Shown: positions 11,940 through 60,695 of the stretch, one piece after another
How positions within the stretch are numbered: position 1 is the first letter of the stretch
Layout: every line of letters begins with the position of its first letter
NCBI RefSeq assembly: GCF_014897705.1
Contig: NZ_JABUXV010000019.1
Span: forward strand, 1-64,000
Direction: 5' to 3'
Length of the DNA: 64,000 nt
From: Brachybacterium sp. FME24
GTDB taxonomy: Bacteria > Actinomycetota > Actinomycetes > Actinomycetales > Dermabacteraceae
Notes under the pieces: model-generated
The model's input: the letters and a program-made list of their open reading frames with translations, nothing else
What the model was told of the DNA's origin: nothing
Database searches by the model: none
Program-made: the position numbers and the translations under genes

Positions 11940-13294
11940 CACCGCGACCCGGCACGGCCCTGCGGCCCACCGCACGCGGCATCGTCGTGCTCGTGCTGGC
12001 CCTGCTGTGCTGGGTCTTCTCGGACCTCACCCGGGTGATGCCCGCCCGCTACCTCGCCGCAGGCCTGCTGCTGGCCCTGCTGATCGGCGCGATCGGCATC
12101 GCCGTCAGCAGCATCGGCCTGCACGCCCGCCGTCAGGTGATCGACGACGCCGCGCCCGTCGGCTCCGTCGCCCGCGTGCAGCTCGAGCTGCTCGGCACCC
12201 CACCGCTGACCGTGCTGCCACTGGGTCGCGGCGCCGTGCGCGAACACCTTCCCACAGCGCTCGGAGGCCAGGGCGACCTGCCGCTGACCCGGCGCATGCC
12301 GCACGTGCTGCGAGTACGGCACCGCGGCGCTCACGAGCTGGGCCCCTACAGCCTCATCGTGCGCGACGTGTTCGGCCTGTTTCACCTGCGCCGCACCGTC
12401 GAAGACGGCCTGCGCATCACCGGGCTGCCCGTGATCACCGAGCTCGCCCCCGGCGCCGAGCGCGCCACCGGCATCGCCCAGGCCGGTCCCCTCAGCGCCG
12501 TCGCAGCCCCGGGCGTCGGCGAGATCGGCCCCATCGCCCGCCCCTACGCCGCCGGCGACGACATCCGCCGCATCAACTGGCGCGCCAGCGCCCGCACCGG
12601 TCAACTGATGACGCGCGAGGACGAACCCTCGGCCGGGCACAGCGCCGTGATCGTCCTGGACACCACCCGGCGCGGCGAGGCCAGCCCCGAGGTCGAGGAC
12701 CGCCTGGTCTCCCACGCCGCCACCGTGCTCGAGAGCCTCGGCCTCAACGGCTGGGAGGTGCGCATCCTGGACGCCTCCGGCGACGAGATCACCCGCACCG
12801 GCCGCCGCCGCGGTATCCCCGGCCCCTCCCCGCTGGGCAGCGAGGCCGACGCCGTCGAGCAGCGCGCCTCGCTGATGGCCCTGGCAGACGTCGACTTCGA
12901 CGACGACGAGGTCGCGACGATCGGCGTCGGCATCGATCACGCCGCCGGGCACACGGCGCTCGCCATCGCCCTGGGGCCGGACCACGGCGAACCCTTCGCC
13001 GGCCTCGAACTGGACCGCTTCGCCGGCCGCTCCACCCACCGCACCGCGATCGCCCTGGCCCCCGTCCTCGCCGACGAGGAGACCGAGCAGCCTCGCCGCG
13101 CCCGCCGCATCGGCCCCGCCGACGGCGACGACTTCGGCAACGCCCACGAGGGCCACGCCGAGCAGCTCGCCGCCGCCCGCCAGGCCTCCTTGCCCACCCG
13201 CTCCTCGCTCGGCGCCTGGACCCTCGTGCGCGGCACCACCGCCGACACCCTGGATGACCTGCTGACCGCGACCGACGCGGCGGACGAGTCATGA
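11936..13294 (+). CDS. DUF58 domain membrane protein
   Basis: A 452-residue protein with two N-terminal membrane helices (GIVVLVLALLCWVF and YLAAGLLLALLIGAIGIAV), a beta-rich region, and the DUF58 core with YAAGDDIRRINWRASARTGQLMTRE around residues 200-225. A VWA-like stretch follows (AVIVLDTTRRGE, with VSHAATVLESLGLNGWEVRI). The GTG at 11936 overlaps the MoxR stop (GTGA), and the stop overlaps the next ATG (ATGA), so all three genes are tightly coupled. It is the usual MoxR partner. Confidence 0.92.
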   Translation: MTPRPGTALRPTARGIVVLVLALLCWVFSDLTRVMPARYLAAGLLLALLIGAIGIAVSSIGLHARRQVIDDAAPVGSVARVQLELLGTPPLTVLPLGRGAVREHLPTALGGQGDLPLTRRMPHVLRVRHRGAHELGPYSLIVRDVFGLFHLRRTVEDGLRITGLPVITELAPGAERATGIAQAGPLSAVAAPGVGEIGPIARPYAAGDDIRRINWRASARTGQLMTREDEPSAGHSAVIVLDTTRRGEASPEVEDRLVSHAATVLESLGLNGWEVRILDASGDEITRTGRRRGIPGPSPLGSEADAVEQRASLMALADVDFDDDEVATIGVGIDHAAGHTALAIALGPDHGEPFAGLELDRFAGRSTHRTAIALAPVLADEETEQPRRARRIGPADGDDFGNAHEGHAEQLAAARQASLPTRSSLGAWTLVRGTTADTLDDLLTATDAADES

Positions 13295-16200
13295 GCCCGC
13301 TGATGGGCCGGCCCGCCCTGCAGGGCAACGCCCTCGTGGGCCGTGCCCTCCTGCTGCTGCTCGCGATCCTGCTCGCCTCGGCGCCGATGTCGATCCTGCT
13401 GGCCGGCTCCTCCTGGTTCGTACTCACCTTCACCGCGGCGACCCCGGTGATCGTGGCCGGGATCGTGCTGCGTCACGTGCTGCGGCGACTGGCACTGGTG
13501 CCGGTCCTGCAACTGGCCGTGATCGCGCTGATGATGCTCGTGGTCGAGGCCGCACAAGGGCTCGTGCAGGTCACCGACGGGCCCCTCGCACTGCTCACCG
13601 ACCAGGCCGTGATCTTCCCGGGCGCCGTCAGCGAGCTCGCCTCCGGGATGGCGCCGCTGACCCTCGGCTCCCGCGGCACCGTGATCGTGGTGCTGCTGAT
13701 CGCCCTGGTCACGCTGGTCCTGGACCTCATCTACGTGGACCTCGGCTGGCACACACCCACCGGGTTGGCGATCATGAGCGCGCTCCTCGTGCCCGCCCTG
13801 CAGCAGCCCGCCGGCGGTGCCTGGTGGACCGTCGCGGCGCCACTGGCCGGAGGACTGATGATCCTCGCGACCCGCACCGTGCACGCCGACCCCGCCTACA
13901 TCGAGGGCGACCGCCGGCCGCAGGCGGGCCCCCTGGCCAGCCCCGCCCGCACCGTCGGCGCCGCCGCGCTGTGCGTGCTGCTGGTGGCCGCGCTCGCCGT
14001 GCCCGTCGGCACCCTCCTGCCGCACGTCGCGCCCACCCGGGTGGCGCTGAACATGGACGTGATCAACCAGTGGCAGAACCGCGACATGCCGCAGCTGGGC
14101 CCGGTCATGATCGACGACGACGTCTCCGTGCGACGCTCCCTCCTCGACCAGGACGACACCGAAGTTCTGCGCTACTCGACCACCAGCGAGGACCCCTCCT
14201 ACCTGCGCCTGCGCACCCTGAACAGCTTCGACGGCGAGACCTACCGCGGCACCGCCCGCGGGGAGGAGCCGGTGATGGGGATGACCGCCTTCTCCGACGC
14301 CCGCAACGACGGAGCCGCCGTCTTCGGTTCGGACGAGGACCTCATCCGCTCGCAGTTCAGCGTGGAGAACCTCGCCGGCGCCCGACTCCCCGCCCCCGAC
14401 CACATCCGTGACATCGACACCTCCCAGCCGGAAGTGACCAGCGCGTTGTCCCTCAGGGCCTCCAACGGTGAGGTCGACGTGGAGCCGGTGCGCACCAGCC
14501 TGGTCGGCCTGGACTACACGATCCTCTCCGAGGAGAGCACCGCCACCGCTGAGGAGCTGCGGGCCGCGGACCCCGCGGTGTTCGAGCAGCCCTTCGAGAC
14601 CGGGTACACCTCCCGCGACGAGGTCCCGCAGATCGCCGTGGACCTTGCGACCGAGGTCGCCGCTGACGCCGGGAGCGAGAACGCCTTCGATACCGCCGTC
14701 GCCTACCAGAACTACTTCCGCGATTCCTTCGCGTACTCCCTCACGGTGAACTCCCCACCGGGGGAGGACCCGCTGGAATCGTTCCTCAGCGACCGCATCG
14801 GCTACTGCGAGCAGTTCGCCGCCGCCTTCGCGCTGATGATGACCTCCCAGGGCTACCCCACGCGCGTGGTCATCGGCTTCACCCCGGGCGAGGAGGACGA
14901 CGAAGAGTGGTCCGTGAGCGCGCAGAACGCCCACGCCTGGCCCGAGGTGTGGTTCGGCCGCCAGCACGGATGGGTGCGCTTCGAGCCGACGCCGGCCGCC
15001 GCCGCGAACGGGGTCAGCCCTCCCGGCGTCACCGACCCCGCCGCCGCCGACGAGGAGGAACCCGCTGAGGAGCCCAGCGAGTCGCCCACCCCGGAGGACC
15101 CCGAGACGACCCCCAGCGAAGACGCCACCACCACCGAGGACCCGGAGGACACCACCGAGGCCGCGACGTCCGACGGCGGGGGCCTGGTCACCGACCCGGT
15201 GACCGTGCAGCGGGTCGAGTCCGGGCTGTTCGTCAGCCTGACTCTCGCCTTCATCGTGGCCGCGGGCGGAGCAGCGGCCGTGGTGCTGATCCGTCGGCAC
15301 CGGGTGCGCCTGCGTGACGAGCGCTGGAACGCCCTGGTCGCCGGCGGGCCCGGGGGAGGAGCAGAGGGCGACGGCGGCGACGGCCGCGGGGCCGGCGGGC
15401 CCGATGGTGCCGGTGGGCCCGGTGGACTCGGAGGGCCCGGAGGGGGACCCGATGGCGAGGGCGGGCGTGGGGCCACCGGTGAGCCCGGCGGGCCCGGTAG
15501 GCCTGACGGGTCGGGTGGGACCGGTGCGGCCGCCGCTGCGGTCGCGATCGAGCGGGAGCGGCGTCGTGCCGGTGAGCTGGCCTGGTCGGAACTGACCGGT
15601 GAGCTGACGGTGCGCGCCCGCGTGATCCGGGTCCTGAGCTGGACCGGGGCCTGGGGCACACCCCCGAAGCAGCTCACGCTCGACGAGGCACTGCCCCCGA
15701 CCCGCGCTCTGGGCGACCTGCTCGATCAGATCGCCGAGGGCGACACCGAGGTCACGCCCGAGAACCGGGAGGCTGCAGGTCGCATCGCCTCCGCCTACAC
15801 CGCCGCCCGCTACGCCGCCCCGCTGCCGGAGCCGGCCGCGGCCGCTCGCGCCACCCCGGTGCCGGAGCCCGCCACCCCGGTGTCGGAGCCCGCCACCCCG
15901 GTGCCGGAGGACGAGCGACCGTTGCGACCTTCGGCACGGAATGAAGGTTCCAAGACCGCTCCAAGGTCACAAGAGGAGCGATCGGGAGCCCCGGTGCCGG
16001 AGGGTGGGGATGCGTTGCGACCTTCGGCACGGAATGAAGGTTCCAAGACCGCTCCAAGGTCACAAGAGGAGCGATCGGGAGCCCCGGTGCCGGAGGGTGG
16101 GGATGCGTTGCGACCTTCGGCACGGAATGAAGGTTCCAAGACCGCTCCAAGGTCACAAGAGGAGCAGCGGGCCGCGGGAGGGCGACGGGCCGCGGAAGGG

Positions 16201-16305
16201 CGACGGGCCGCGGGAGGGCGACGGGCCGCGGGAGAGCAGCGCGTCATGCCTCCGCTGCGTCACGATGCGGACCAGATCATCACCCTGATCCGCAACTCCC
16301 GCTGA
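13291..16305 (+). CDS. TgpA-type membrane transglutaminase (DUF3488 + transglutaminase core)
   Basis: A 1004-residue protein with an N-terminal DUF3488-like multi-helix membrane domain (about residues 1-235), an extracytoplasmic region, and a transglutaminase core with Cys506 (RIGYCEQFAAAF) and His548 (NAHAWPEVW). The third position is Glu565 (VRFEPTP), where many homologues have Asp. A membrane helix follows near residues 645-672, then a cytosolic tail. The tail holds a Gly-rich collagen-like tract (about residues 684-750), an ordinary helical C-terminal domain to about residue 845, and an unusual repeat region: three 31-residue repeats and RRAAGG-type repeats. It is the third gene of the MoxR operon, probably acting on envelope proteins. 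The repeat tail is atypical for the family. Confidence 0.9.
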   Translation: MSPLMGRPALQGNALVGRALLLLLAILLASAPMSILLAGSSWFVLTFTAATPVIVAGIVLRHVLRRLALVPVLQLAVIALMMLVVEAAQGLVQVTDGPLALLTDQAVIFPGAVSELASGMAPLTLGSRGTVIVVLLIALVTLVLDLIYVDLGWHTPTGLAIMSALLVPALQQPAGGAWWTVAAPLAGGLMILATRTVHADPAYIEGDRRPQAGPLASPARTVGAAALCVLLVAALAVPVGTLLPHVAPTRVALNMDVINQWQNRDMPQLGPVMIDDDVSVRRSLLDQDDTEVLRYSTTSEDPSYLRLRTLNSFDGETYRGTARGEEPVMGMTAFSDARNDGAAVFGSDEDLIRSQFSVENLAGARLPAPDHIRDIDTSQPEVTSALSLRASNGEVDVEPVRTSLVGLDYTILSEESTATAEELRAADPAVFEQPFETGYTSRDEVPQIAVDLATEVAADAGSENAFDTAVAYQNYFRDSFAYSLTVNSPPGEDPLESFLSDRIGYCEQFAAAFALMMTSQGYPTRVVIGFTPGEEDDEEWSVSAQNAHAWPEVWFGRQHGWVRFEPTPAAAANGVSPPGVTDPAAADEEEPAEEPSESPTPEDPETTPSEDATTTEDPEDTTEAATSDGGGLVTDPVTVQRVESGLFVSLTLAFIVAAGGAAAVVLIRRHRVRLRDERWNALVAGGPGGGAEGDGGDGRGAGGPDGAGGPGGLGGPGGGPDGEGGRGATGEPGGPGRPDGSGGTGAAAAAVAIERERRRAGELAWSELTGELTVRARVIRVLSWTGAWGTPPKQLTLDEALPPTRALGDLLDQIAEGDTEVTPENREAAGRIASAYTAARYAAPLPEPAAAARATPVPEPATPVSEPATPVPEDERPLRPSARNEGSKTAPRSQEERSGAPVPEGGDALRPSARNEGSKTAPRSQEERSGAPVPEGGDALRPSARNEGSKTAPRSQEEQRAAGGRRAAEGRRAAGGRRAAGEQRVMPPLRHDADQIITLIRNSR
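15345..15530 (+). repeat. Gly-rich, collagen-like coding tract
   Basis: This encodes about 60 residues dominated by Gly, Pro and Asp, including roughly seven consecutive Gly-X-Y triplets (GAG GPD GAG GPG GLG GPG GGP). It lies after the last membrane helix of the transglutaminase, so it is predicted cytosolic. Confidence 0.7.
15922..16158 (+). repeat. Three 93-bp coding repeats, each carrying a 51-bp palindromic element
   Basis: Units start at 15922, 16015 and 16108 (exact 93-bp period). Each begins with a 51-bp segment running from TTGCGACCTTCGGCAC to AAGGTCACAA, with GACCTT/AAGGTC able to pair. A related 51-bp element with the same ends lies between genes at 41873-41923. Since 51 bp is 17 codons, the frame stays open. 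Confidence 0.9.
16167..16238 (+). repeat. 18-bp coding repeats (RRAAGG)
   Basis: About four 18-bp units of the form ggcgacgggccgcgggag encode repeated RRAAGG/RRAAEG near the C-terminus of the transglutaminase, directly after the 93-bp repeats. Confidence 0.8.
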
Positions 16306-23379: not shown

Positions 23380-23687
23380 CCCCGTCTGCCGAATCGTCAT
23401 CGGCCTGCTCCAGGCCACGCAGACGAGGGCTCCCGTCAGGCACCGGAGGATTCCTCGTCGCCCACCGCGCGTCTCGCCGTGCAGCGCACGTCCGGACGCC
23501 GGCCCGCACGACGGCCCCACCGCACGCAGCAGGGCGCCCACTCTGCGGCGGGCTCCCTGCTGCGGTCCGCAAGTTTCGCTGGCCACTACGGTCACGGGTA
23601 GGGAACAGCCCCACCCGCTGCTCTCCACCCGCTGCTGCCACTCGCCGCCGGCCCCGTAGCCCTCAACCACCGAGCCCTGATGGTCAT

Positions 23688-23723
23688 GCGCGCCCGACTT
23701 CCCTGGAGGGAAGTCGGGCGCGC
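23688..23723. terminator. Palindromic terminator-like repeat, copy A
   Basis: GCGCGCCCGACTTCCC (23688-23703) and GGGAAGTCGGGCGCGC (23708-23723) pair perfectly around a TGGA loop, followed by AATACCGT. It lies 17 bases past the stop of the second sugar operon. The right arm plus tail matches 22 of 23 bases of copy B at 30017-30039. Confidence 0.85.
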
Positions 23724-23740
23724 AATACCGTAGGCCGTTC

Positions 23741-29942: not shown

Positions 29943-29987
29943 GGGCAGAGTGCATCGAGTTCCGACGCCTCTCTCGATGAGTACCTG

Positions 29988-30039
29988 ACGGTATTGTGCG
30001 CTCCACTTCCCGCAGTGGAAGTCGGGCGCACAATACCGT
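29988..30039. terminator. Palindromic terminator-like repeat, copy B
   Basis: Arms 29988-30010 and 30017-30039 (23 bases each) pair with two mismatches around a 6-base loop. They contain ACGGTATTGTGCGC and its complement. It sits between the convergent FAD oxidoreductase and NADH dehydrogenase genes and is nearly identical on its right side to copy A at 23.7 kb. Confidence 0.85.
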
Positions 30040-30094
30040 CTTGTCACGGAGTGGGGGCCGCGCTTGGGCCCGGCCAGGGCGCCGGGCCCGGGGG

Positions 30095-34698: not shown

Positions 34699-37443
34699 AT
34701 GAGCATTCCCACCCACGGCCCCGGCCTGCGGACGCGCCTGATGCGCGTCGGCACCGCCGCAGCCGCCCTCGCACTCGGCCTGAGCCTGACCCCCGGCCTC
34801 GCCCCCACCGCCCAGGCCGCCGTGGTCACGCCCGGCGACATCCAGATCAACGAGGTCTACGGGGGCGGCGGAAACTCCGGAGCGAGCGTCCAGAACGACT
34901 TCGTCGAACTGCGCAACACCTCCGACGCCGACGTGTCGATCGACGGCTGGTCCTTGCAGTACGCGTCCAAGACCGGCAGCTTCAACAACTCCCTGGACCT
35001 GCAGGGCACCGTTCCCGCCGGCGGCACCTTCCTGGTCCAGCTCGCCGCGGGCAACGGCAACGGAGACCCGCTGCCGCAGGCCGACCTGACCGGAGGCATC
35101 AACGCCTCGGGCACCGGCGGCGTCTTCGCCCTGTCCGATGCCGCGGGGAAGCTCCAGTGCACCGGCACCACCTGCGCCGAGGACCCGACCGTCGTGGACC
35201 TGGTGGGCTGGGGCGCCGCCACCACCTTCTCGGGCGAGGCCCCCGCGCCCGCGACCACCAATGCCACCTCCGTCTCCCGCATCGCGGAGACCGGCGAGAA
35301 CTCCACCGACTTCACCGCCGGCGCACCGACCCCCACCCCCTCCGGCGCCGAGCAGCCCGACCCCGAGGAGCCCGACGAACCCGAAGAGCCCGGCGAACCC
35401 GTAGAGCCCACCCCCGCCACGATCGCCGAGATCCAGGGCACCGGCGAGGCGAGCCCTCTGGCCGGGACCACCGTGGTCACCGAAGGCGTGGTGACCGCGG
35501 TGTACGCCACCGGCGGCCTGAACGGCTACGTCATCCAGACCGCCGGCACCGGGGGCGCACTGGACTTCTCCTCGCACACCGGTTCCACCGCCGTGTTCGT
35601 CTACTCCTCCGCGACCGCCGATCAGGTCTCCATCGGTGACTCCGTGCGTGTGAGCGGCGAGGTCGCCGAGTACTACGGCTCCACCCAGATCACGGTCGGC
35701 GCCGACGGCCTCGAGCCGCTCGTCGAGCCGCTCGCGCCGGTGGAGCCGATCTCGATCGAGGGCGGTTTCCCCACCGCCGAGGCACAGCGCGAGAGCATCG
35801 AACACATGCTCTACCTGCCCGGCGAGGACGACTTCACCGTCACCGACGTCTACGGCACGAACAAGCACGGCGAAGTCGGTCTCGCGATCGGTGATCAGCC
35901 GCTGCAGCAGGCCGGCGACATCATGGCCCCCGGCGCGGAGGCCACCGAGTACTTCGAGGCGCAGGCGCAGAACCTGGTGCTGCTGGACGACGGCCGCACC
36001 ACCGACTTCACGAGGAACCCCGAGCAGCCGGTGAGCTGGCTGACCACGCAGGAGCCCGTGCGCGTCGGCGCCGGTGTCGCCTTCGAGCAGCCCGTCGTCG
36101 TCACCTACTCCTTCGACCAATGGCGACTGAACGTCACCACCCCGTGGTCGGTGGCGGACACCGACGGGGTGGCCTTCGAGGACACTCGCGAGGACGCCCC
36201 CGACGAGGTGGGCGGCGACCTGCAGCTGGCCACCTTCAACGTGCTGAACTACTTCACCACCCTGGGGGAGGACACCCCCGGCTGCGAGCCCTACACGAAC
36301 ATGGAGGGCGAGGGCACCAACGTCTCCGGCGGCTGCGACCTGCGCGGCGCGTGGGGAGCCGACGACCTCGAGCGCCAGCAGTCCAAGCTCGTCGAGGCCA
36401 TCTCCGGCACCGACGCCGAGGTTGTCGGCCTGATGGAGATCGAGAACTCCGCCCGGCTGGGCGAGACCGCTGACGAGGCCACCGCCACCCTCGTCGACGC
36501 GCTGAACGCGAAGGACGGTGCAGGCACGTGGGCCTATGTCCCCACCGACGACGCCTACGCCGCGCAGGGCCTCGACGGGGGCCAGGACATGATCTCCAAC
36601 GCGATCATCTACCGCAGCGCCGCCGTGTCGCCGCAGGGCGGTGCGCAGATCCTCGCGAACGACGAGGCGTTCAACAACGCCCGCGAGCCCATCGGGCAGG
36701 TCTTCGCGCCCGTCCAGGGGGAGGGCGAGGAGCAGGTCGAGGGAGAGCCGTTCTTCTACACCGTCAACCACTTCAAGTCCAAGGGCTCGAAGGACGCTGA
36801 GGACGCGGACCTCGAGGCCGATCCGGTGCAGGGCAACGCCCGCACCTCCCGTCTGCAGCAGGCCGAGGCACTGCTGGACTGGAGCGAGCAGAAGGCAGAC
36901 GAGCTCGGGGTCCAGGACGTCTTCCACGGCGGCGACCTCAACGCCTACACCCAGGAAGATCCCCTGCAGCTGTTCTACGACCAGGGCTATGTGAACCTCG
37001 GCGAGACGTACGACGCCGAGGGCTGGTCCTACAGCTACAGCGGCATGGTGGGTTCGCTGGACCACGTCCTGGCCAACGCATCGGCCGCGGAGCGCGTGAC
37101 CGGCGCGACGGACTGGCAGATCAACGGTGCCGAGTCCGTGATGACCCAGTACTCGCGGTACTTGAACAACACCACCGACCTCTATGAGGAGGGAGTGTTC
37201 GGCTCCTCCGACCATGACCCGATCATCGTGGGCCTGGACGCCGGCTTCCCCGAGGGCGGCGGCGACGAGGACACCCATCCCGGGAACGGGAACGGGAACG
37301 GGAACGGGAACGGGAACGGGAACGGGAACGGGAACGGGAACGGGAACGGGAACGGGAACGGCAACAAGGGCCCGGGCCACAACAACGGCTCGGCGCCGGG
37401 GAGCAACAGCGGCATCGGCCACGGTTCCGGCCGCCAAGGGTGA
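34699..37443 (+). CDS. Secreted ExeM/NucH family endonuclease with lamin-tail domain
   Basis: A 914-residue protein. A signal peptide to about residue 40 (ending AQAAVV) is followed by a lamin-tail domain (residues about 42-180: IQINEVYGGGGNSGASVQNDFVELRNTS) and an OB-fold-like middle region. An endonuclease/exonuclease/phosphatase domain follows from about residue 505 (LATFNVLNYFTT; VVGLMEIEN; NHFKSKGS; HGGDLNAYTQEDP; GSLDHVLAN; SSDHDPIIVGL). The C-terminal tail has 13 Gly-Asn repeats from (GGGAAC)13 and a GHNNGS-rich end without sortase motif. Start: ATG 34699 with AGGAGA. It degrades extracellular DNA or RNA, giving substrates to the neighbouring nucleotidase. Confidence 0.92.
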   Translation: MSIPTHGPGLRTRLMRVGTAAAALALGLSLTPGLAPTAQAAVVTPGDIQINEVYGGGGNSGASVQNDFVELRNTSDADVSIDGWSLQYASKTGSFNNSLDLQGTVPAGGTFLVQLAAGNGNGDPLPQADLTGGINASGTGGVFALSDAAGKLQCTGTTCAEDPTVVDLVGWGAATTFSGEAPAPATTNATSVSRIAETGENSTDFTAGAPTPTPSGAEQPDPEEPDEPEEPGEPVEPTPATIAEIQGTGEASPLAGTTVVTEGVVTAVYATGGLNGYVIQTAGTGGALDFSSHTGSTAVFVYSSATADQVSIGDSVRVSGEVAEYYGSTQITVGADGLEPLVEPLAPVEPISIEGGFPTAEAQRESIEHMLYLPGEDDFTVTDVYGTNKHGEVGLAIGDQPLQQAGDIMAPGAEATEYFEAQAQNLVLLDDGRTTDFTRNPEQPVSWLTTQEPVRVGAGVAFEQPVVVTYSFDQWRLNVTTPWSVADTDGVAFEDTREDAPDEVGGDLQLATFNVLNYFTTLGEDTPGCEPYTNMEGEGTNVSGGCDLRGAWGADDLERQQSKLVEAISGTDAEVVGLMEIENSARLGETADEATATLVDALNAKDGAGTWAYVPTDDAYAAQGLDGGQDMISNAIIYRSAAVSPQGGAQILANDEAFNNAREPIGQVFAPVQGEGEEQVEGEPFFYTVNHFKSKGSKDAEDADLEADPVQGNARTSRLQQAEALLDWSEQKADELGVQDVFHGGDLNAYTQEDPLQLFYDQGYVNLGETYDAEGWSYSYSGMVGSLDHVLANASAAERVTGATDWQINGAESVMTQYSRYLNNTTDLYEEGVFGSSDHDPIIVGLDAGFPEGGGDEDTHPGNGNGNGNGNGNGNGNGNGNGNGNGNGNKGPGHNNGSAPGSNSGIGHGSGRQG
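37282..37359 (+). repeat. (GGGAAC)13 microsatellite in the nuclease gene
   Basis: Thirteen perfect GGGAAC units encode (Gly-Asn)13. GGG runs separated by three-base AAC loops match the canonical G-quadruplex pattern on the coding strand and mRNA. The 6-bp unit keeps frame on slippage. Confidence 0.95.
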
Positions 37444-41872: not shown

Positions 41873-41923
41873 TTGCGACCTACGGCACCTCGAGAGACCG
41901 GCAAAACCTGCCGTAGGTCACAA
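41873..41923. repeat. 51-bp palindromic intergenic element
   Basis: It runs from TTGCGACCTACGGCAC to GTAGGTCACAA; GACCTACGGCA (41877-41887) pairs perfectly with TGCCGTAGGTC (41909-41919). It has the same length and the same ends as the 51-bp segments inside the transglutaminase gene at 15922, 16015 and 16108. Confidence 0.85.
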
Positions 41924-58890: not shown

Positions 58891-59269
58891 AGCCGAGGGT
58901 TCCATGACCCGTCCGGGTGGCCCTCTCGTCTCGGGCGCATCGACCCCTCGCGTCCCCGTAGCCCCCTGCCCGCACTCCCAGGGCTACCCGTCGGTACCCC
59001 GCACGAACCAGGGCTACCCGTCGGTACCCCGCACGAACCAGGGCTACCCGTCGGTACCCCGCACGAACCAGGGCTACCCGTCGGTACCCCGCACGAACCA
59101 GGGCTACCCGTCGGTACCCCGCACGAACCAGGGCTACCCGTCGGTACCCCGCACGAATAGGCGTTGAGGATGGCTGATTCCGCCTACTCACGCGCGGTGA
59201 AACTCCAGGCACTGCGGGAGCGGAGCTGGGCCATACGCGGAGGCACCAGGCGTGTGGTGACGGTTCCCG
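58891..59269. other. Intergenic region between convergent genes, largely a 30-bp tandem array
   Basis: Between the convergent methyltransferase and DUF559-type genes. Apart from the 30-bp array (58981-59160) nothing else is seen. Frames through the array are open on both strands because 30 is a multiple of three, but they lack start signals and any other coding evidence. Confidence 0.7.
58981..59160. repeat. Six-copy 30-bp minisatellite, hairpin-forming
   Basis: Six 30-bp units start at 58981, 59011, 59041, 59071, 59101 and 59131; the first five look identical and the sixth changes only at its last bases. Each unit contains GGGCTACC-CGTC-GGTACCCC, whose arms pair at seven of eight positions. 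Confidence 0.95.
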
Positions 59270-60250
59270 TCATGGACGCCATCCTCGTTCCCGAAGTTCG
59301 TCCCGGACGAGGCGAATGGCCTGCGCACAGTTGCGTCGCGTGTCTTCCTCGTACAGCCGGATCTCTGCCCATCCTGCGGATTTCACCTGACGGGCCCTCC
59401 GAATGTCACGCTTCACCTGGTCATTTTCCTTATGTGAGGCACCCTCGTACTCAACGCACACTCGGTACTGCGGCCACTGGAAGTCCGGGTCGTGGCGGGC
59501 TCGGCCGTCGGCGCCGATCAAGGGCTTGTTGATCAGCGGCTCTGGGAGACCGGCTTCGATGAACGCCAGGCGCAGCAAGGTCTCCATCGGGGAATCGGAG
59601 CCGATCCGGATGTCCGCGAGAGCACGACGAAGGGCCTGCGCGTGGCGACCAGTGCAGACGGCCCGGAGCTCCTCGAGAGTGCACCAGGGGAGCTCGCGCC
59701 CGGGCTCGAAGTCCGGGCGGGGCGTGCGGACGAGGTGGTCCCCGACCGTGACGAGCGGCACGTGCGGCAGATTCTGCGCGAGGTCTCGCCATGTGCGCGC
59801 GCGGTTGGTGACCCGCAGGGTGGAGCGCGGAGCCGTTGCGGAACTGGTGTATGACCTGCGCTGTCTATAGGTGAGTCGTTGGGTCTCCTCGGGGGTGATC
59901 GCGAAATCGTGCCAGCGGATGACGCGGTCCGATCCATTGCGACCCCCGGGGATCGACACGTGCAGCGGTGTGCGCAGGCTCCATGACTCGAGCAGTCGGG
60001 GCAGTGGCATCCCCAGAAGACGGGCCGCAGAGAGCCCGACGACGACCGCCGGGCCCTCGTGACGACAGATCGCAGCAGCGAGGGAGGCCTCAGTGACCGG
60101 GTCCCCCTTTCTCGCCTGCAGTCCCCGGCGGAGGCGGGTGAGGTCACCTCGCTTGAGACGATCCGACGAGACTCCGGCGTTCCGCGCTTCTGCGCTGGTG
60201 AACACCTGCCAGGGCAGTGCGCTCGGGAGGGGATCCGGGGGACGCGGCAT
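59270..60250 (-). CDS. DUF559/Vsr-like endonuclease-fold protein with AbiEi-like N-terminus
   Basis: A 326-residue protein. The N-terminal half resembles the winged-helix region of AbiEi-like antitoxins (WQVFTSAEARNAGVSSDRLKRGDLTRLRRGLQ). The C-terminal half contains the DUF559 nuclease-like fold: PMETLLRLAFIEAGLPEPLINKPLIGADGRARHDPDFQWPQYRVCVEYEGASH, where Glu, Asp and Glu are spaced as in restriction-like active sites, then RRARQVKSAGWAEIRLYEED. Such genes are common singletons in actinobacteria. No AbiEii toxin is adjacent. GC at third positions is lower than in neighbours, hinting at transfer. Confidence 0.75.
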   Translation of the reverse strand: MPRPPDPLPSALPWQVFTSAEARNAGVSSDRLKRGDLTRLRRGLQARKGDPVTEASLAAAICRHEGPAVVVGLSAARLLGMPLPRLLESWSLRTPLHVSIPGGRNGSDRVIRWHDFAITPEETQRLTYRQRRSYTSSATAPRSTLRVTNRARTWRDLAQNLPHVPLVTVGDHLVRTPRPDFEPGRELPWCTLEELRAVCTGRHAQALRRALADIRIGSDSPMETLLRLAFIEAGLPEPLINKPLIGADGRARHDPDFQWPQYRVCVEYEGASHKENDQVKRDIRRARQVKSAGWAEIRLYEEDTRRNCAQAIRLVRDELRERGWRP

Positions 60251-60695
60251 GCACCCAGGGTGGCTCGAGGTCGACAGCGACCTCGCTCACCATCCACAAC
60301 CGGCGCTGTGGAGGAACGGTCCGCGGCGATGATCAGGCCCACGTCACCGCGGGCGGTGGCCCGGTGGCCCCGGTGACCCGACTGGCGCGGGCGACCGTCG
60401 AGGGCGACTCCCAGCTGTACCAGCGAAGGGCGCGTTGTCGCCCTGCCCGTCATCGCCACAGCGTGCCCCCGTCGCGATGGCTGCGGGCAACCCGCTTGAA
60501 TAGGCGGTGACAAGGCCTCTTTCCGCCGATTCAGGCGGGGTGGCCAAGTGTGAGCGGGGTGGCCAAGAGGGTGTCGGGAATCAGCCGGCGCCGCTGCCAC
60601 CGACGCTCATGCCAGCGCGAACGCTCATGCCAGTGCAAACGCCCATGCCAGCGCATACGCCCTCGCCCTCGCCAGCGCCAGCGCCAGAGCTGGCG
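60251..60695. other. Intergenic region with short repeats
   Basis: No supported gene. It contains a 14-bp direct repeat GCGGGGTGGCCAAG (60535 and 60554), three degenerate 18-bp repeats of the gctcatgccagcgcgaac type (about 60607-60660), and a 14-bp palindrome CGCCAGAGCTGGCG (60682-60695) directly after the stop of the next leftward gene, where it may act in termination. Confidence 0.55.

Follow-up and report, generated by a model that had tools for sequence, protein, structure and literature searches.

The transglutaminase gene and its tail

The window, by which we mean the whole 64,000-nucleotide stretch of DNA analysed, belongs to Brachybacterium sp. FME24 (genome G000; 4.81 Mb in 67 contigs, denoted by C-numbers; other genomes of the genus carry G-numbers likewise). 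On its forward strand lies a TgpA-like transglutaminase gene (13291–16305), a single ORF of 1004 aa in which Pfam recognises TgpA_N (PF11992, E = 4e-27) and Transglut_core (PF01841, E = 9e-23). The tail of the gene holds, on the same strand, a 93-bp × 2.9 tandem array (15896–16165) containing three 51-bp palindromic elements at 15922–15972, 16015–16065 and 16108–16158, each located by pattern match and by a covariance model, R1 (60.6 bits for the first). A further copy, found in the same two ways (59.3 bits), is intergenic at 41873–41923, and the orthologous site in G010 is without it. A sequence-only reading had described these four copies, and we could confirm their coordinates, their length of 51 bp, and the features common to coding and intergenic copies, namely TTGCGACCT at the start, CGGCAC at positions 11–16 and GGTCACAA at the end. 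In the intergenic copy an inverted repeat of 11 bp, GACCTACGGCA/TGCCGTAGGTC, is present; the coding copies have GACCTT/AAGGTC and keep frame within the ORF. Elsewhere in the window, long coding-type tandem arrays with units of 48, 96 and 306 bp occupy 1–1860, and the hexamer CGGGAA is repeated 14 times at 37281–37365.

Transglutaminase tails are variable and repetitive across many species. Seven of 30 orthologues were labelled as having a tail palindrome, a label that rests partly on sequence resemblance judged by eye. The palindromes are clear only in G009, G036 and G010, with two in G010 that are members of that genome's own dispersed family; in G024, G014 and G037 the likeness is by eye, and other tails were judged empty. 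The palindrome score alone cannot pick out the relatives' in-gene copies, tails judged empty reaching 12.5 and G014 and G037 not being singled out. Since palindromes occur in this tail, and in the frame of the G000 copies, in orthologues of other species as well, the tail palindrome does not look like a fresh insertion and is either old or recurrent. On the tree the label requires 5 changes, a number equally low in 42 of 500 shuffles, and the tree shows neither a single origin nor independent insertions.

Tandem tail copies are found in G000 (93 bp × 3), G010 (84 bp × 2) and G014 (84 bp × 2), the frame from the transglutaminase domain stopping inside the first repeat in the G014 record. A decayed copy of the 3' end of the transglutaminase gene at C64:137453 (88% identical over 86 bp) contains one element. 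This single copy suggests that the triplication is probably later, and that the 93-bp × 3 array probably arose after the element had arrived. Amplification as a 93-bp unit, as the earlier reading had it, is thus probable. Its further proposal, a mobile palindrome turned into a protein repeat, agrees with a dispersed family that includes intragenic copies, but not in the form of a fresh insertion. In G010 (C1:400001–660000, L107–L119) there are also intergenic tandem palindromes with 94-bp units, four of them at 618.8–619.2 kb, so tandem growth extends beyond the coding copies.

A dispersed family of 51-bp palindromes

The coding and intergenic copies are members of one dispersed palindromic family. 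The pattern KTGYGACC-N35-GGTCRCAM, whose fixed termini enclose 35 free bases and so fix the length at 51, occurs exactly at 17 places in G000 and its reversed control at none. Of three matches with one mismatch, C59:101414 and C59:266025 were accepted as members and C12:6212, which is not palindromic, was dropped; C36:8593 and C3:45400, with two mismatches, were left out of the member count. By our own simple gene calls the resulting 19 places comprise 15 that are intergenic, 3 in one gene, to which the in-frame coding copies are confined, and 1 in the decayed gene fragment. A search for half-elements without fixed length gave the same 19 places, as did model R1, which allows indels, at E = 1e-4 or better among the 150 of 3667 candidates scored.

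Leave-one-out profiles of the 17 distinct sequences, with tandem or paired copies removed together, scored 45.4–61.8 bits, and the best of 917,354 background windows scored 7.7, a likeness beyond chance. Even a profile built from just two copies that flank a nuclease gene on contig C18 (see below) gives the other 15 distinct copies 23.7–56.4, with a background maximum of 17.6. The variability of the tails, and the chance palindromes of up to 12.5 in some of them, might suggest an ordinary coding tandem repeat in the tail, resembling the intergenic element by coincidence, but with the tail copy at 51.6 bits when left out, far above every background window, we find this hardly credible. Compensating changes keep the stem: 83.6% of cells are paired compared with 75.2% in shuffles, and two-sided alterations affect 30 cells where 13.7 would be expected (0 of 500 shuffles). 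Counted by stem pair rather than by cell, two-sided changes stand out less, in 9 pairs compared with 6.9 (22 of 500 shuffles).

The flanks of separate loci are unrelated, with nothing in common beyond short matches, which rules out a larger repeated unit, and by eye no direct repeat of two or more bases, as a target-site duplication would leave, was seen in the flanks beside the elements. We infer that the 51-bp element is mobile. A role as chromosome-domain sites was rejected, since synteny places the G000 copies in many different parts of the G024 chromosome.

Of 13 intergenic loci classified by our own gene calls, 6 have convergent neighbours and just 1 has divergent ones. The many positions between convergent genes, together with the ability to fold, would suit transcription terminators or mRNA 3' hairpins, but ppc and a GNAT gene keep a conserved terminator hairpin beside the element, G009 has the ppc/GNAT terminator without the element, no T run follows the elements in the inspected flanks, and copies occur within a gene; as an explanation of the family this is very improbable. 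Rfam, applied to ten loci, recognised only one tRNA and one TPP riboswitch, the latter (L058:2587–2679) adjoining a tandem pair of elements. Contigs C18 and C25 overlap by 55 bp at their ends (L262:1–67 and L259:1–39), within a single palindrome of the era–leuA gap, and the assembly may have broken at this hairpin.

In the 37 genus mates the exact pattern found no TTG-ended palindrome of the 51-bp kind; it matched one or two places each in G022, G035 and G036, the two in G036 looking like relatives by eye. Among the 150 of 3667 candidates scored, model R1 located 14 places in six other genomes (G008, 2; G009, 3; G021, 1; G024, 3; G031, 3; G037, 2), mostly with the longer ends CGAGTGCGACC...GGTCGCACTCG, and none in the 31 others. 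Elements lie between fabF and a DUF3145-like gene in G000, G009 and G024, one in each and with differing arms, and the gap by ridA has one in G000 and G009. In G009 and G024 the element is absent from the era–leuA, guaB, ppc and GNAT-gene sites and the gaps are shorter, the terminators being conserved where present. The family thus has both shared sites and sites gained in the G000 lineage or lost elsewhere. The stringent pattern had no match in a wider collection of genome contigs, from which the element's own genome was possibly left out, and viral contigs contained relatives of neither the element nor the nuclease described below. A loose palindrome scan had a high chance background (50–64 matches per 100 kb in two sets) and was not used for counts. 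A second G000 palindrome family (GACGGT..TGYRCGC..ACTTCC...GGAAGT..) was seen at three places in 0.46 Mb (window 23682–23729 and 29987–30040, and L053:4151–4198), and no nuclease partner was found for it there.

Putative nuclease genes and their flanking palindromes

Two copies of the 51-bp element on C18, at 48441 and 49757, bracket one 350-codon gene. They are the most informative of all, and the sequence-only reading had no view of them. Among the 17 distinct sequences their pairing, at 22/25 and 20/25 positions, is tied for first and for fourth place. The C18 protein itself has no Pfam match, and among 54 relatives only 4 match REase_MTES_1575 and 2 match DUF559; against PF18741 and PF04480, members and relatives give E values between 5e-5 and 3e-3, most of them failing the curated cut-off, and the PADLOC AbiEi model matches the N-terminal region with E = 2e-4 to 3e-5. 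No PDB relative was found by sequence. Residues D269, E280, H286 and E231 are invariant in the 54 sequences, and may include the D...E catalytic motif of a PD-(D/E)XK nuclease. Some sources name relatives AbiEi, DUF559 or very-short-patch-repair endonuclease. The C18-type protein would thus be, weakly by profile, an AbiEi-like winged helix-turn-helix (wHTH) joined to a PD-(D/E)XK-type (DUF559/REase_MTES_1575-like) nuclease. Its gene stands alone, the neighbours being, by eye, GH76-like and UTP-glucose pyrophosphorylase-like rather than AbiEii, and in G024 these neighbours are joined without nuclease or palindromes.

Other palindromes bracket the C18 orthologue in G009 and a paralogue in G010. 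The palindrome–gene–palindrome unit spans ~1.3–1.4 kb. Searching with tblastn, which is blind to palindromes, gave three further nuclease genes, each with a matched pair. One of these, also found by HMM, is in the window at 59273–60253 on the reverse strand; it is a paralogue of the C18 gene, and its product is 39% identical to the C18 nuclease and matches the NCBIfam DUF559 model below the cut-off (E = 0.003). A palindrome of the GAATAGGCG type lies on one side of it at 59155–59189 and a matching one on the opposite side at 60498–60532. A perfect 30-bp × 6 tandem repeat (58978–59157) ends at the left palindrome.

Each gene was given a matched-palindrome score, that is, the best match of a palindrome on one side within the 400 bp on the other side, and 561 genes of 750–1300 bp in the same stretches served as control. 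Fifteen of these reached 14, and the highest (45) proved to be another wHTH–DUF559-like gene. With that gene set aside, 14 of the remaining 560 score at least 14, one of them apparently an IS transposase by eye. An HMM built from the nuclease proteins identifies eight genes in 2.13 Mb of Brachybacterium DNA from four species, with scores of 14, 16.5, 20.5, 19.5, 22, 23 (29.5 with another start), 45 and 13.5; seven of the eight thus reach 14. The last, just short, is the G024 orthologue of a G009 gene, and paired changes account for part of the difference between its right-hand palindrome and the G009 one. By discovery, the eight comprise three loci noticed through their palindromes, which provide no independent test, the three tblastn-found genes, all at 14 or more, the top control gene and the G024 orthologue. 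Both the 51-bp family and its tie to nuclease genes are well supported.

The palindrome sequence is particular to each nuclease locus, and even within G009 it differs among all three loci. We searched for seven palindrome pairs in 0.46–0.80 Mb of each of three genomes. Within these stretches dispersed copies in the home genome were found for five of the seven families (3, 1, 3, 7 and 4) and for two there were none, while none of the seven matches either of the two other genomes searched. One G010 family has nine exact places, all within 212 kb (427–639 kb) around its nuclease gene. The orthologous nucleases of G000 and G009 are 66% identical and their palindromes differ, so recognition would have to change fast. 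Where G009 has its 2.044-Mb nuclease unit (L317:3326–4967), G024 and G021 have other genes (L347/L348 and L349/L350) with no clean empty site, and this location looks variable.

Outside the genus, 11 homologues were taken from public plasmid records and one contig labelled phage. Their scores are 40, 15.5, 11.5, 11, 10 and 10 in Tsukamurella (all from one strain), 24.5, 22 and 0 in Arthrobacter, 0 in Nonomuraea and 27 in a faecal contig. Five of the 11 therefore reach 14, four of them strongly, compared with 0 of 41 control genes drawn from two of the records, and six have no matched pair.

AbiEi antitoxins are reported to be autoregulated through inverted repeats, and the weakly supported AbiEi-like N-terminus would allow the palindromes to be operators at which the winged helix represses its own gene, the dispersed copies forming a regulon. 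The copies lie on both sides of the gene, however, including downstream, the bias at the intergenic loci is towards convergent rather than divergent genes, and three copies are inside a coding region, all of which makes this account quite doubtful.

A proposed nuclease-linked palindrome system and its relation to known repeats

The palindromes bracketing the nuclease gene and its sister genes suggest that these enzymes may spread the repeats, and we give an even chance to a system like REP/RAYT in which a PD-(D/E)XK-type nuclease replaces RAYT. The nuclease would recognise its own palindrome, as a dimer on the two-fold symmetric site or on an extruded hairpin, and cut it, and repair-linked copying would then spread the palindrome; no transposition event was seen. 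One copy would have entered the variable C-terminal tail of the transglutaminase, where an insert of 17 codons could be tolerated, and local tandem duplication would have produced the 93-bp × 3 array.

The palindromes might instead be non-autonomous repeats moved by another enzyme, with the nuclease genes as cargo or settled neighbours. The discrete 51-bp unit and its unrelated flanks fit such an origin, as do the IS transposase-like gene among the controls and the fact that REPs are known targets of insertion sequences (PMC1525189). Against it stand the separate palindrome of each nuclease locus, the half-element matches in G000, among which no separated pair of half-elements was noticed, and the result for a Y1/RAYT transposase: PF01797 was found in 0 of 38 genomes of the genus and in 5 of 14 named control genomes. 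We consider this origin unlikely, if clearly less so than the operator account.

With somewhat less confidence than in the nuclease as mover, we propose tentatively, from sequence comparison, a more general unit: a wHTH and PD-(D/E)XK-type nuclease gene that would be bounded by, recognise and spread its own palindrome. Such units could be selfish or domesticated, form several enzyme-specific families per genome, resemble REPs without an HUH transposase, and occur in Brachybacterium as well as in some Arthrobacter and Tsukamurella at least. If true, this would supply a function for some of the many AbiEi/DUF559 proteins, a possible role for a nuclease-like family annotated only as hypothetical, DUF559 or AbiEi, and a candidate enzyme for dispersed palindromes in a genus without the usual REP mobiliser. 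It would also give a pairing rule, one nuclease gene to one palindrome family. The transglutaminase tail adds a case of a palindromic repeat that became part of a protein and was then probably amplified. Searches of the open-access literature showed no report linking DUF559-type nucleases with flanking palindromes or inverted repeats.

MITEs are likewise non-coding, palindromic and dispersed, but the 51-bp family has no target-site duplication and no parent insertion sequence was found for it; only the C18 nuclease unit carries the 51-bp palindrome at both ends, and no transposase was found. The AbiE toxin–antitoxin systems have their likeness to the C18 protein in its AbiEi-like N-terminal region, whereas the C18 gene is alone and its product has a nuclease-like C-terminus. 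Rickettsia palindromic elements also lie in frame in protein genes (PMC10969869, in the text available), but they are of ~150 bp and occur in many unrelated genes, whereas the 51-bp family is in frame in one gene only.

The closest likeness is to REP/RAYT systems, since the 51-bp elements too are short, dispersed palindromes that are mainly intergenic (15 of 19 in G000). According to the accessible part of PMC3733652, REPs lie mostly between convergent or same-direction genes, are species-specific with several families per genome, and are sometimes within genes, where clusters of tandem palindromes code for 43–82 residues; at one recB site two Xanthomonas species have different repeats in the orthologues. 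Those cases concern another phylum and another type of repeat, with no nuclease link described in that text, and Actinomycetota is not among the REP phyla as it lists them. The element is longer, at 51 bp compared with 20–40 for REPs, and the 17-row alignment with its flanks shows no conserved GTAG or CGTC end. With neither such an end nor a Y1 transposase, the system falls outside REP/RAYT proper. In REPtrons the family-specific enzyme genes that are flanked encode RAYT (TnpA_REP; PMC3733652, same part), whereas the flanked gene here encodes, in place of a Y1 transposase, an AbiEi/DUF559-like nuclease.
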